Assembly (NCBI RefSeq): GCF_027889715.1
Contig: NZ_JAPJZH010000010.1
Span: forward strand, 1-64,000
DNA: 64,000 nt
Source: Allohoeflea poritis
Lineage (GTDB): Bacteria; Pseudomonadota; Alphaproteobacteria; Rhizobiales; Rhizobiaceae
Direction: 5' to 3'
Shown here: positions 39,716-43,565 of the stretch, piece after piece
Position numbering within the stretch: position 1 is the stretch's first letter
How the letters are laid out: every line of letters begins with the position of its first letter
The notes under the pieces: generated by a model
Told to the model about the DNA's origin: nothing
Database searches by the model: none
The model's input: the letters and a program-made list of their open reading frames with translations, nothing else
Made by a program: the position numbers and the translations under genes

Positions 39716-40345
39716 ATGTTCGACCATCCGATCACCGGAGCGGCGATGGCCGGATTTCTGCTTGGCGGCTCGCTGATCATCGCCATCGGCGCCCAGAATG
39801 CCTTCATCCTGCGTCAGGGCCTTGTGCGTTCGCATGTTTTCGTCGTCTGCCTGATTGCCGCGATTTCCGACGCCCTGCTGATTGCAGCGGGCGTCGCCGG
39901 TCTCGGAACCGTTGTCGCCCGCTCGCCCGTCCTCATCAGTGTCGTCACGCTTGGCGGCGCCCTGTTTTTGTTCGGCTATGCCGTGCTGGCCTTCAGGCGC
40001 GCACTGCACCCGCACGGCCTGGAAGCGTCCAGCAAAACCGCAGCGGGCTTCTGGGCGGCGGTCACCACCTGCTTGGCGCTGACTTTCCTCAATCCGCATG
40101 TCTATCTCGACACGGTCCTGCTGATCGGCGGCCTGTCCGGAGGCTATGAGGGCTCAGCCCGTCTTGCCTTCGGTATCGGCGCGGGCATCGCTTCCTTTGT
40201 GTGGTTCTTCGGCCTCGGATACGGAGCGCGGCTGCTTGCGCCGATCTTCGTGCGGCCCGTGGCCTGGCGCATTTTGGACATCATCATCGGGCTGATCATG
40301 GCTGGACTGGCCGTCGGCCTTTTGCTGCGATACGTCAATTCATGA
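39716..40345 (+). CDS. LysE/ArgO-family amino-acid exporter
   Basis: 209 residues with six membrane helices. The family start GGSLIIAIGAQNAFILRQGL and the later FLNPHVYLDTVLL are those of the LysE/ArgO group, which export basic amino acids such as arginine and lysine. GGGAG precedes the start. It lies directly before the cysS leader region, which has its own promoter. Confidence 0.9.
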   Translation: MFDHPITGAAMAGFLLGGSLIIAIGAQNAFILRQGLVRSHVFVVCLIAAISDALLIAAGVAGLGTVVARSPVLISVVTLGGALFLFGYAVLAFRRALHPHGLEASSKTAAGFWAAVTTCLALTFLNPHVYLDTVLLIGGLSGGYEGSARLAFGIGAGIASFVWFFGLGYGARLLAPIFVRPVAWRILDIIIGLIMAGLAVGLLLRYVNS

Positions 40346-40372
40346 TCGTTTAATGATCGCTGCAGGCATGAC

Positions 40373-40401
40373 TTGACGGCGCGCCCGCGAACGGCGATAA
40401 G
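40373..40401 (+). promoter_or_regulatory. Candidate promoter of the leader-cysS-cimA transcript
   Basis: TTGACG (40373-40378) and GATAAG (40396-40401) are 17 bases apart. The expected start of transcription is near 40408, almost on the A of the leader ATG at 40409, so the leader could be read as a leaderless message. Sequence match only. Confidence 0.55.
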
Positions 40402-40408
40402 TTGCGCC

Positions 40409-40465
40409 ATGAAAACGCTTCGCGGCTCCGCCGCAATTTGCATCATCTGCATCATTATCAGCTAG
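40409..40465 (+). CDS. Ile/Cys leader peptide (putative attenuator) upstream of cysS
   Basis: 18-codon frame, MKTLRGSAAICIICIIIS. Codons 10-17 are all isoleucine or cysteine: six Ile (ATT or ATC) and two Cys (both TGC). Cys is rare in proteins, so the run is unlikely to be chance. No ribosome binding site precedes the ATG, but the predicted start of transcription falls on it. The next genes are cysS (Cys-tRNA synthetase) and cimA (isoleucine precursor). A leader that stalls at low charged tRNA-Cys or tRNA-Ile is the natural reading. Too short for ordinary gene finding; entirely inferred. Confidence 0.6.
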   Translation: MKTLRGSAAICIICIIIS

Positions 40466-40525
40466 CCATCCGCTGGCCTGGCCGTTTTCGTCTCAAATCC
40501 GTGCAAAGACAAACGCCCTGGCCAG
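40437..40525 (+). promoter_or_regulatory. Candidate alternative RNA structures of the cysS leader
   Basis: GCTAGC (40461-40466, containing the leader stop) pairs with GCTGGC (40472-40477), loop 5, one G-U pair. TTTGCAT (40437-40443, within the Ile/Cys codons) can pair with GTGCAAA (40501-40507). CTGGCC (40473-40478) can pair with GGCCAG (40520-40525). The first and third exclude each other. No classic T-rich terminator is seen; TTTT at 40485-40488 follows the first hairpin by 7 bases. Control may act on transcription or on access to the cysS ribosome site AAGGGAG. Confidence 0.4.
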
Positions 40526-40546
40526 AGGCACAAGGGAGTTTGACCT

Positions 40547-41917
40547 ATGGGCGACCGACGCCTTCAACTGCACAACACGCTGACGCGCGAAAAGGAAGAT
40601 TTTGCCCCGATCGACCCGACGAATGTGCGTATGTATGTTTGCGGTCCGACGGTCTACGACTTCGCGCATATCGGCAATGCGCGCCCGGTCATCGTGTTCG
40701 ATCTCCTTTTCCGGCTGCTGCGGCACCATTTCGGCGCGGAAAACGTCACCTATGTGCGCAACATCACCGATGTCGACGACAAGATAAATGCCCGCGCCGC
40801 CCGGGATCATCCGGACAAGCCGCTCAACGATGCGATTGCGCTGGTAACGGCCAAGACGGCCGATCAGTTCCACGCCGATGTCGGACAGCTCGGTTGCCTC
40901 GAGCCGGATTTCGAACCGCGGGCGACGGACAACATCCCGCAGATGATCGAGATGATCGGCGTGCTTCTGGAGAAGGGCCACGCCTACGAGGCGGGCGGCG
41001 AGGTTCTTTTCGACGTCACATCGACACCGAAATATGGCGAACTTTCGCATCGCAAGCTGGAGGATCAGCAAGCCGGCGCACGCATAGCCGTTGAGGACCA
41101 CAAAAGGAATCCCGGCGACTTCGTCCTGTGGAAGCAGTCGGCGGAAGATGAGCCCGGCTGGCCTTCACCCTGGGGCGTTGGCCGCCCGGGCTGGCATATC
41201 GAGTGCTCGGCCATGAGCGAGCGCTATCTGGGAAAGGTCTTTGACATTCATGGCGGCGGCCTCGATCTGATTTTCCCGCACCATGAGAACGAGATCGCCC
41301 AGTCTTGCTGCGCCAATGGCACCGAGCGCATGGCGAATATCTGGATGCACAACGGCTTCCTCCAGGTGGAGGGTCAGAAGATGTCCAAGAGCCTTGGTAA
41401 CTTCGTCACCATCCACGAATTGCTGGCCGGCGACACATTCGGCGCACGAAGCTGGCCGGGCGAGGTGCTGCGGCTGGCTATGCTGATGACCCATTATCGC
41501 GAGCCGATCGACTTCTCGAAGCGCAAGCTCGAAGAGGCCGAGCGGCTTTTGGAGAAATTCGCCCGCCGCGCCGGGGATGCGGCCGACGACGGGCTGCCGG
41601 ACGCCGAAGTGATCGACGCGCTGTCCGACGATCTCAATTTTCCCGGTGTGCTGGCACGATTGAGCGCGCTCGACGGAGCGGCGCTGGCATCGACACTCAG
41701 GATGCTCGGCTTTTCCGCCTACAGGCAGGCGAAGACGACCGATGTCGATGAGGCGGTGATTGCGGAGCGCATCGCCACCCGGCTCGCCTTCATTCGCGAC
41801 AAGGACTGGGCGAGCGCCGATGCTATCCGCGATGAACTGGCCTCGAGCGGCATCCAGCTCAAGGACGGCAAGGATCCGGAGACCGGAGACCGCGTAACCA
41901 CATGGGAAGTGCTTTAG
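40547..41917 (+). CDS. cysS: Cysteinyl-tRNA synthetase
   Basis: 456 residues, class I synthetase. The HIGH-type motif is in [11 protein letters not shown], zinc-site residues lie in [11 protein letters not shown] and HIECSAMS, and KMSKSLGN is present near residue 277. It charges tRNA-Cys in the cytoplasm. AAGGGAG lies about eight bases before the ATG. It is preceded by the Ile/Cys leader and followed after 46 bases by cimA. Confidence 0.97.
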
Positions 41918-41963: not shown

Positions 41964-43565
41964 ATGAGTCAGCGCGAGAAGATCTACCTATTCGACACCA
42001 CATTGCGGGACGGGCAGCAGACGCCCGGCATCGATTTCGGCGTCGAGGACAAGATTGCCATCGCCAAGCTGCTCGATGAGTTCGGCGTCGATTATGTGGA
42101 GGGCGGCTATCCGGGCGCCAATCCGACCGACACCGCCTTCTTCGAGAAGAACCGCATGAAGAGTGCCTCCTTTGTCGCCTTCGGCATGACAAAGCGGGCA
42201 GGCGTATCCGCCTCCAACGATCCGGGTGTATCGGCGCTGCTGCAGTCGCGGAGCGACGCCGTGTGTTTCGTGGCCAAGAGCTGGGACTACCATGTCGACG
42301 TAGCGCTTGGCATCACCAATGAGGAGAACCTCGAGGGGATCACGGCGTCCGTCGAGGCGACGGTTGCCGCCGGCAAGGAGGCAATGGTCGACTGCGAGCA
42401 TTTCTTCGACGGCTACAAGGCCAATGCCGACTATGCGCTGGCCTGCGCGCGGGCGGCCTATGATGCCGGCGCGCGCTGGGTGGTGCTTTGCGACACCAAT
42501 GGCGGCACGCAGCCGGCGGAAGTTGCGAAGATTGTCAGTGCGGTTATCGCTGCCGGCATCCCGGGGGATCATCTCGGCATTCACGCGCACAACGACACAG
42601 GGCAGGCCGTCGCCAATTCGCTGGCGGCCGTCGATGCCGGCGTACGTCAGGTGCAGGGAACGCTCAACGGCATCGGCGAGCGCTGCGGCAATGCCAATCT
42701 TGTGACTCTGATCCCGACGCTGGTGCTGAAGCCGCTTTGGAACAGCCGGTTCATGACCGAGATCGATGCGGACAAGCTCAAGCAGTTGACGCGCATCTCC
42801 CATGCCTTCGATGAACTGCTGAACCGGTCTCCCGAGCCGCAGTCTCCCTATGTCGGCGCTTCCTCCTTCGCCACCAAGGCCGGCATCCACGCCTCGGCGC
42901 TCCTGAAGGATCCGCGCACCTATGAGCATGTGGAGCCGGATGCCGTGGGCAACCAGCGCAAGGTCATGGTCTCCGACCAGGGCGGAAAGTCCAATTTCAT
43001 CAACGAGTTGAACCGGCGTGGCATCGAGGTCTCCAAGGACAATCCGCGCCTCGACCGGCTGATCTCCATCGTCAAGGAACACGAGGCCGCCGGCTATGCC
43101 TATGAGGGCGCCGATGCCAGTTTCGAACTGCTGGCGCGGCGCACGCTTGGCCGGGTGCCGGAGTTCTTCAAGGTGGACAGTTTCCGCGTCATGGTGGAGC
43201 GCCGTTTCGACGCCAACGGAAATCTGAAGACCATTTCGGAAGCCATCGTCAAGGTGGAGATCGACGGCGAGACCAAGATGTCCGTATCCGAGGGTCATGG
43301 TCCGGTCAACGCGCTCGATATCGCCCTGCGCAAGGATCTCGGCAAATACCAGGCCGAAATCGAGGATCTCGAACTGACGGACTACAAGGTGCGAATCCTC
43401 AATGGCGGCACGGAAGCGATCACACGGGTGCTTATCGAGTCGCGCGACCAGAGCGGCGAGCGCTGGTGGACCGTCGGCGTATCGCACAACATCATTGATG
43501 CGTCCTTCCAGGCGTTGATGGATTCGGTGACCTACAAACTGCTCAAAATGCGCAAGGATGGATGA
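41964..43565 (+). CDS. cimA: (R)-citramalate synthase
   Basis: 533 residues of the TIGR00977-type family. The DRE-TIM metallolyase start YLFDTTLRDGQQTPGIDF, the metal ligands HAHNDTGQAVANSL and a C-terminal LeuA dimer/regulatory domain are present. It condenses pyruvate and acetyl-CoA to citramalate, feeding 2-oxobutyrate and isoleucine. The last ~130 residues probably bind isoleucine as feedback inhibitor. The pair cysS-cimA with an Ile/Cys leader is discussed in the findings. Confidence 0.92.
   Translation: MSQREKIYLFDTTLRDGQQTPGIDFGVEDKIAIAKLLDEFGVDYVEGGYPGANPTDTAFFEKNRMKSASFVAFGMTKRAGVSASNDPGVSALLQSRSDAVCFVAKSWDYHVDVALGITNEENLEGITASVEATVAAGKEAMVDCEHFFDGYKANADYALACARAAYDAGARWVVLCDTNGGTQPAEVAKIVSAVIAAGIPGDHLGIHAHNDTGQAVANSLAAVDAGVRQVQGTLNGIGERCGNANLVTLIPTLVLKPLWNSRFMTEIDADKLKQLTRISHAFDELLNRSPEPQSPYVGASSFATKAGIHASALLKDPRTYEHVEPDAVGNQRKVMVSDQGGKSNFINELNRRGIEVSKDNPRLDRLISIVKEHEAAGYAYEGADASFELLARRTLGRVPEFFKVDSFRVMVERRFDANGNLKTISEAIVKVEIDGETKMSVSEGHGPVNALDIALRKDLGKYQAEIEDLELTDYKVRILNGGTEAITRVLIESRDQSGERWWTVGVSHNIIDASFQALMDSVTYKLLKMRKDG

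Follow-up and report, generated by a model that had tools for sequence, protein, structure and literature searches.

The window, that is, the whole 64,000-nucleotide stretch of DNA analysed here, carries a short reading frame upstream of genes for cysteine--tRNA ligase (cysS) and citramalate synthase (cimA). The main features of the locus are as follows.

40373 to 40401, + strand: predicted promoter, with the -35 box TTGACG (40373–40378), a 17-nt spacer and the -10 box GATAAG (40396–40401), from the sequence and its conserved spacing.
40409 to 40465, + strand: putative leader ORF MKTLRGSAAICIICIIIS, followed by a stop codon, from the sequence, comparison with near relatives and a codon-blind frame count.
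40436 to 40459, + strand: candidate control codons I-C-I-I-C-I-I-I (leader codons 10–17), by translation.
40547 to 41917, + strand: cysS, cysteine--tRNA ligase, above the NCBIfam cut-off of TIGR00435.
41964 to 43565, + strand: cimA, citramalate synthase, above the NCBIfam cut-off of TIGR00977.

The leader begins with ATG at 40409, ends with TAG at 40463–40465 and comprises 18 sense codons. Sequence and translation confirm the eight Ile or Cys codons in a row described in the original prediction, and the NCBIfam matches bear out its assignment of cysS and then cimA downstream. Across all six reading frames of the window (64 kb), no other Ile/Cys run reaches five codons. The gene located 5' of the leader (39716–40345) resembles a LysE-type amino acid exporter, with a score below the curated cut-off. 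In dinucleotide shuffles of the 330-nt regions upstream of cysS, an ATG frame of 8–25 codons with at least five Cys or Ile among its last ten arose in 0 to 0.5% of cases, depending on the locus group, and at least four were reached in 0–2.5%. The Rfam scan returned no match at the leader of the window above the gathering score, the only match in the window being a tRNA; among nine leader loci scanned likewise, none had a match at the leader, and one sub-threshold match lay elsewhere.

Alignment of the region upstream of cysS revealed a conserved Cys/Ile-rich frame at the equivalent place in 10/10 near genomes (eight of the window's genus and two of a second, neighbouring genus), as the original prediction implies. 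The leader is located 133–139 nt 5' of cysS; an exporter match precedes it, and cimA follows cysS, in some of these genomes after one intervening GFA-like gene. In G004 the exporter match is about 1.3 kb away, cut by the locus end. The peptide of the near relatives is MKTLRGAAAICICWIIIR with variants. TTGAC, GATAAG, the stop region and GTTTTCGTCTC are invariant in the alignment, and ATGAAAACG is almost invariant. The runs read ICICWIII (or WKII), ICICCIII or ICIFCIII, in contrast to the pure Ile/Cys run of the window. The strict form of the predicted run is thus present in the window but species-specific, and the shared pattern is one of Cys codons and then terminal Ile codons. A Trp codon occupies position 14 (40448–40450) within the run in seven of the ten near relatives (L085–L091, ICICWIII or ICICWKII). 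One genome of the neighbouring genus contains a second cysS-like gene (G127:C1:3331986-3333320), which is 53% identical.

The -10 box is separated from the leader ATG by 7 nt, which places the predicted transcript start at the A of this ATG (40409). A set of 115 leaders was compared; like the leaders used for the pairing, stall and codon counts below, they were chosen by a rule requiring Cys and Ile. TTGAC is found 35–38 nt 5' of the leader ATG in 102/115 of them, A/T bases occur at -12 to -9, and the ATG is directly preceded by a C/G-rich stretch with no purine-rich ribosome site. Because the promoter box sits at a fixed distance from the ATG, transcription probably starts at the A of the start codon, and this spacing supports the predicted leaderless nature of the leader. 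A strict sigma-70 scan, which demands T at the last base of the -10 box, found no promoter in 40200–40700.

Leader-type frames or matches to an RNA model occur in Rhizobium, Ensifer, Mesorhizobium, Martelella, Phyllobacterium, Devosia, Stappia, Bradyrhizobium and many Rhodobacterales (survey of 80 named loci). In Cohaesibacter (L019, around 2660–2789) the leader MKTVFAHLCCIIGQIIIH is located 273 nt 5' of cysS, more distant than usual. A position-blind rule (ATG frame of 8–25 codons within 330 nt, at least one Cys and at least two Ile in the last ten codons) was satisfied by 82/88 family loci with cimA vs. 4/27 without it (raw counts before curation). The corresponding counts for order loci were 28/31 with cimA linked, 1/7 without cimA and 2/4 with linkage unknown; for more distant class loci they were 2/6 with cimA linked and 0/6 without cimA. 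Of the loci whose cimA is distant from cysS, 0/5 satisfied the rule. With high counts in the order and low counts in the class, the leader appears typical of the order, not of the class at large. Four distant genomes (G190, G417, G192 and G281) have a cysS match with one in-frame TGA, for which an altered genetic code or an error in sequencing is possible.

A codon-blind rule, which accepts an ATG 35–38 nt after TTGAC and ignores codon content, is the fairer test, since the other leaders were selected for Cys and Ile. In the family sample, cysS was found in 150 and cimA in 123 of 151 genomes (E up to 1e-80). The 88 cimA-bearing loci represent 82 of these 123 genomes plus six more of the genus, and the 27 cimA-less loci represent 27/28 cimA-less genomes. 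The rule detected a frame in 79/88 loci with cimA vs. 4/27 without, which upholds by comparison the claimed tie between Ile/Cys content and the operon genes. Within the last ten codons, 78/79 frames of the cimA-bearing loci have at least two Ile and 78/79 have Cys. The four frames of the cimA-less loci are MKTMICCCC, MKLTICLCC and MNTSLANCCRC, all three Cys-rich and with no more than a single Ile, and MKTPTAISGICIIG of G095 (L171), where the contig stops inside pip, the gene preceding cimA in relatives. Among order loci with cimA linked, 26/31 have a frame, and all 26 contain Ile and Cys. For cimA-less order genomes (7 of the 16 with cysS were examined, those with listed coordinates) the count was 1/7, namely G726, which lacks cimA yet keeps MNGSLAICGICREIKS and is a clear counterexample as far as the assembly shows.

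On the tree set, the codon-based count after hand curation and with G095 left out was 81/88 family loci with cimA vs. 0/26 without; over all 163 rows a leader was scored in 107/124 with cimA vs. 1/39 without. Curation removed chance frames of L179 and L188 and set the L116 leader to MNTSLANCCRC, and L171 and L257 were omitted. No recognised leader was present in 7/88 cimA-bearing family loci and in 10/36 order and class rows. On the CysS tree cimA changes 12 times; over seven supported independent pairs the leader went with cimA in 5.8, against it in 0.1 and did not differ in 1.1 (median p 0.03, range 0.016–0.63). With an earlier CysS tree, the values for and against were 5.2 and 0.0 (median p 0.06). 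Wherever cimA lies in the stretch examined, it is co-oriented with cysS (45/45 loci). Long minus-strand ORFs listed between the two genes in relatives may be shadows. Seven loci without cimA and without the leader (L126, L127, L132, L140, L145, L163 and L164) retain cysS with a pip-like neighbour, and 5/7 also a GFA-like gene.

An RNA model was built from 71 leaders (the alignment took 71 of the 115). In whole family genomes it matched 110/123 with cimA vs. 4/28 without; among genomes outside the model the counts were 52/65 vs. 2/26, uncorrected for kinship, and many of these genomes have near relatives in the model. The matches in cimA-less genomes are G024 and G126 (Cys-rich), G095, and G032, whose contig begins within cysS. 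Each of the eight genomes of the window's genus, seven of which are in the model, has one strong match before cysS. A second site in G026 (contig C6, E 7e-5) follows another gene and looks like chance, and weaker second matches were obtained in G054 and G110. No separate leader rich in Ile and Cys was found before distant cimA genes (19 upstream stretches, 18 usable, because a contig end truncates that of G226); the frames picked up by a loose rule in two of these stretches, L285 and L286, are not rich in both amino acids.

Judged by how long and how similar its cimA matches are, family f25 is probably Rhodobacteraceae. There, cysS is present in 149/150 and cimA in 142/150 genomes. Frames were detected by content, because f25 does not follow the TTGAC rule. 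All 12 loci with linked cimA, hand-picked from the 142 cimA-bearing genomes, have a frame of at least two Ile and at least one Cys, and the one genome with cimA far from cysS has no leader. Among seven of the eight cimA-less genomes, those with listed coordinates, three have no leader, G818 has a Cys-rich one with one Ile, and three have a Cys and Ile frame, with cysS within about 0.7 kb of the contig end.

Folding of the region between the leader start and cysS suggests a set of alternative helices formed by the following elements.

40409 to 40419, + strand: strand 1, the leader start region AUGAAAACG(CU), predicted 5' arm of helix P1, from folding and covariation.
40461 to 40477, + strand: predicted hairpin P2, GCUAGC (containing the stop codon) with GCUGGC, 94.9% of cells paired.
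40473 to 40493, + strand: strand 2, CUGGCCUGGCCGUUUUCGUCU, from folding and pairing tests.
40507 to 40525, + strand: strand 3, AGACAAACGCCCUGGCCAG, predicted partner of strand 2 (P3) or of the ribosome-site region (P4), from folding.
40510 to 40542, + strand: predicted hairpin P4 over the cysS Shine-Dalgarno sequence AAGGGAG (40532–40538), -15.1 kcal/mol.

The segment CGUUUUCGU (40483–40491) within strand 2 could pair either with strand 1 (P1) or, together with the 3' arm of P2, with strand 3 (P3). A 92-nt fold of the window holding P1 and P2 has -27.6 kcal/mol (z -3.1); the whole 141-nt stretch up to the cysS start is no stabler than shuffles (z -1.3), and the same is true of two sub-folds of the leader. 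P1 is stronger with its own partner than with swapped ones (-12.1 vs. -9.3 kcal/mol), the own partner being better in 104/115 leaders and in 23/30 order and class loci; for the control pairing of strand 1 with strand 3 it was better in 55/115, which is no difference. The codon-4 pair of P1 changes in a compensatory manner (GC 27, UA 12, AU 6, CG 1). P1 and P2 together have 89.3% of 1345 cells paired and score above every one of 500 shuffles on four of the five measures, kinship among leaders being ignored in these statistics. For P3, 87.0% of cells are paired, with covariation barely beyond shuffles (33 of 500, family set), and the own partner was better in 63/115 leaders overall and in 25/30 order and class loci. 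The covariation of P1 and the pairing ability of P2 and P3 support the predicted helices linking the start codon, the stop codon and the cysS ribosome site. A P4-like fold is similar in many relatives, not all. In the window, the output looks translational, since a scan of 40200–40700 gave no + strand terminator at the switch and P4 hides the ribosome site; of two terminator matches in that interval, one falls within the exporter gene and the other is on the minus strand, and both were set aside. In some relatives the P4-like hairpin stands off the ribosome site and is followed by a U-rich stretch (by eye), so the output may differ there, and a terminator may be used instead of translational control.

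These elements are probably parts of a ribosome-mediated attenuator with a leaderless leader, which would sense the availability of charged tRNA-Cys and charged tRNA-Ile and control the cysS-(..)-cimA operon accordingly; this reading, based on comparative data, is considered likely. With both charged tRNAs plentiful, the leader would be translated through, and strand 1 and the stop region would pair with strand 2 (P1 and P2), leaving strand 3 free for P4 over the cysS ribosome site, with low expression. A ribosome stalled while waiting at a Cys or Ile codon would prevent pairing of strand 1, of the P2 arm or of both; strand 2 could then take strand 3 (P3), undoing P4 and permitting expression of cysS and the presumably co-transcribed genes behind it, including cimA. 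The direction of control, with shortage raising expression, and the translational mode in the window's genus belong to the same model. Dual sensing is probable because the Cys/Ile frame recurs and is mostly lost, or Cys-only, where cimA is missing.

In a stall model of the window, a ribosome at Cys codons 11 or 14 gave P3 of 0.00–0.01 and no switch, Ile codons 16–17 gave P3 of 0.56 with the ribosome site open at 0.39, from 0.24, and Ser 18 gave a partial response. In 109 leaders (six were omitted), strand 2–strand 3 pairs numbered 7.8 without a ribosome, 11–15 with a ribosome inside the leader and 6.8 with a ribosome at the stop codon. This reflects position, not amino acid, because other codons there act alike. 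The proposed two-amino-acid attenuator is favoured by a conserved leader whose codons follow the genes, but the window model switches with the late Ile codons and not with the two Cys codons; the Cys input of the window could act by ribosome queueing or kinetics. In short leaders, Cys codons are located where a paused ribosome covers the start region, and Ile codons where the P2 arm is covered. A two-input gate is tentatively possible, in which Cys codons near the start would guard P1, Ile codons beside the stop would guard P2, and the leaderless start codon would be part of strand 1; on loss of cimA the Ile input would be removed, and the Cys input kept in a few genomes.

The element could instead be a Cys-only attenuator of cysS, with the Ile codons serving as a weakly structured A/U-rich spacer without a sensing role. 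Such an arrangement would agree with the position of cysS next to the leader, with Cys in nearly all codon-blind frames of cimA-bearing family loci and with the survival of Cys-rich leaders in cimA-less G024, G126, G025 and G818, and a published Rhodobacterales prediction names Cys alone (PMC8632094, accessible part). The codon counts argue against a mere A/U-rich spacer. In codons -2 to -7 of 111 leaders (666 codons; L257 and three Cys-rich leaders omitted), chosen for Cys and Ile content, there are 360 Ile codons (ATT 253, ATC 107), 125 Cys codons and just 3 other all-A/T codons. Many leaders have one Cys and three or four Ile, and in the codon-blind comparison Ile drops to none or one in cimA-less lineages retaining the leader. 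The Cys-only explanation is therefore regarded as unlikely. Codon -3 (40454–40456 in the window) is ATT in 104/112 leaders although ATC is synonymous; this points to an extra base-level constraint at this codon and speaks against the dual reading, as does the fact that few lineages separate Ile from Cys, because most cimA-less genomes lost the whole leader.

This frequent loss (no leader found in 23/26 cimA-less family loci) could mean that the leader is mainly an Ile attenuator for cimA, lost together with it, and that Cys is a minor input. The residue composition agrees with this, codon-blind frames of cimA-bearing family loci having 345 Ile and 150 Cys among 1121 residues after Met, as does the response of the window model to Ile stalls only. 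Cys is a rare residue in proteins, yet it persists in 78/79 codon-blind frames, and Cys-rich versions of the leader persist without cimA, which makes a mainly Ile-reading device quite improbable. Action of the peptide or the released leader RNA in trans (cf. peTrpL/rnTrpL), or sequence-dependent ribosome arrest by the peptide, is suggested by the resemblance of a leaderless 14–18-aa leader to trpL (PMC7298713, accessible part), but it is highly improbable, as residues other than Cys and Ile vary and the common MKT start can be attributed to RNA pairing, the start region covarying with its P1 partner.

If the dual-sensing attenuator is real, it would be a widespread device coupling two metabolically distinct amino acids through an operon of a synthetase and a biosynthetic enzyme, and it would add a layout that uses a leaderless start codon as a strand of the switch itself. 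A natural control exists in the few cimA-less lineages with a surviving leader, where the Ile codons vanish, and two-amino-acid sensing becomes testable by simple codon swaps.

Leaders reading more than one amino acid are textbook knowledge for thr and ilv: thrL and ilvL of E. coli are of this kind, and pheM precedes synthetase genes. The amino acids of each of these leaders belong to one pathway, and none of them is known to couple a synthetase with the biosynthesis of a different amino acid. The original prediction, which knew of no described case, needs correcting on this point and for the Cys part. Searches of open-licence papers yielded no report that describes attenuation of cysS-cimA, a cysS leader in Rhizobiales or any input from Ile, and cysS is absent from the accessible main text of the S. 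meliloti small-proteome paper. The Cys part had already been predicted: uORFC-8-2, a putative Cys attenuator before cysS, was proposed from 145 Rhodobacterales examples (Brewer et al. 2021, PMC8632094). There too, a short frame starting with AUG and holding tandem Cys codons precedes cysS, and ribosome-mediated attenuation was suggested for it; uORFC-8-2 differs in being reported exclusively in Rhodobacterales, for Cys, and in having an intrinsic terminator with a U run. The accessible part of that account makes no mention of Ile, cimA, Rhizobiales or a start-codon helix. The f25 loci may be members of uORFC-8-2; the window agrees with it in position and gene, but its Cys codons are not in tandem and no terminator was found there.

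Another comparison is with trpL of Sinorhizobium meliloti, a leaderless leader of 14 aa that is transcribed from its own ATG and forms two mutually exclusive structures (PMC7298713). According to the accessible text, it resembles the present element in the leaderless start, predicted here, and in the two exclusive structures, and differs in reading Trp only, in serving a biosynthetic operon and in acting through a transcription terminator. Polycysteine leaderless sORFs with attenuation are known in mycobacteria (Canestrari et al. 2020, via PMC9031893; cited in PMC13236596); as far as these partial accounts go, they are alike in the leaderless start predicted here, in their Cys codons and in the proposed attenuation, and differ in involving Cys alone and in belonging to another phylum. 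Of the elements of a trp-type attenuator, the window has a short leader frame enriched in cognate codons (the putative leader, by its frame and codon content) and the exclusive helices 1:2, 2:3 and 3:4, as predicted P1/P2, P3 and P4, with the candidate control codons lying between strands 1 and 2; in place of a 3:4 terminator with a U run, which was not found in the window, P4 covers the ribosome site. The element thus looks like a trp-type attenuator with a translational output, and it is a conserved element whose Cys half was already predicted in another order, with a probable second, Ile input.
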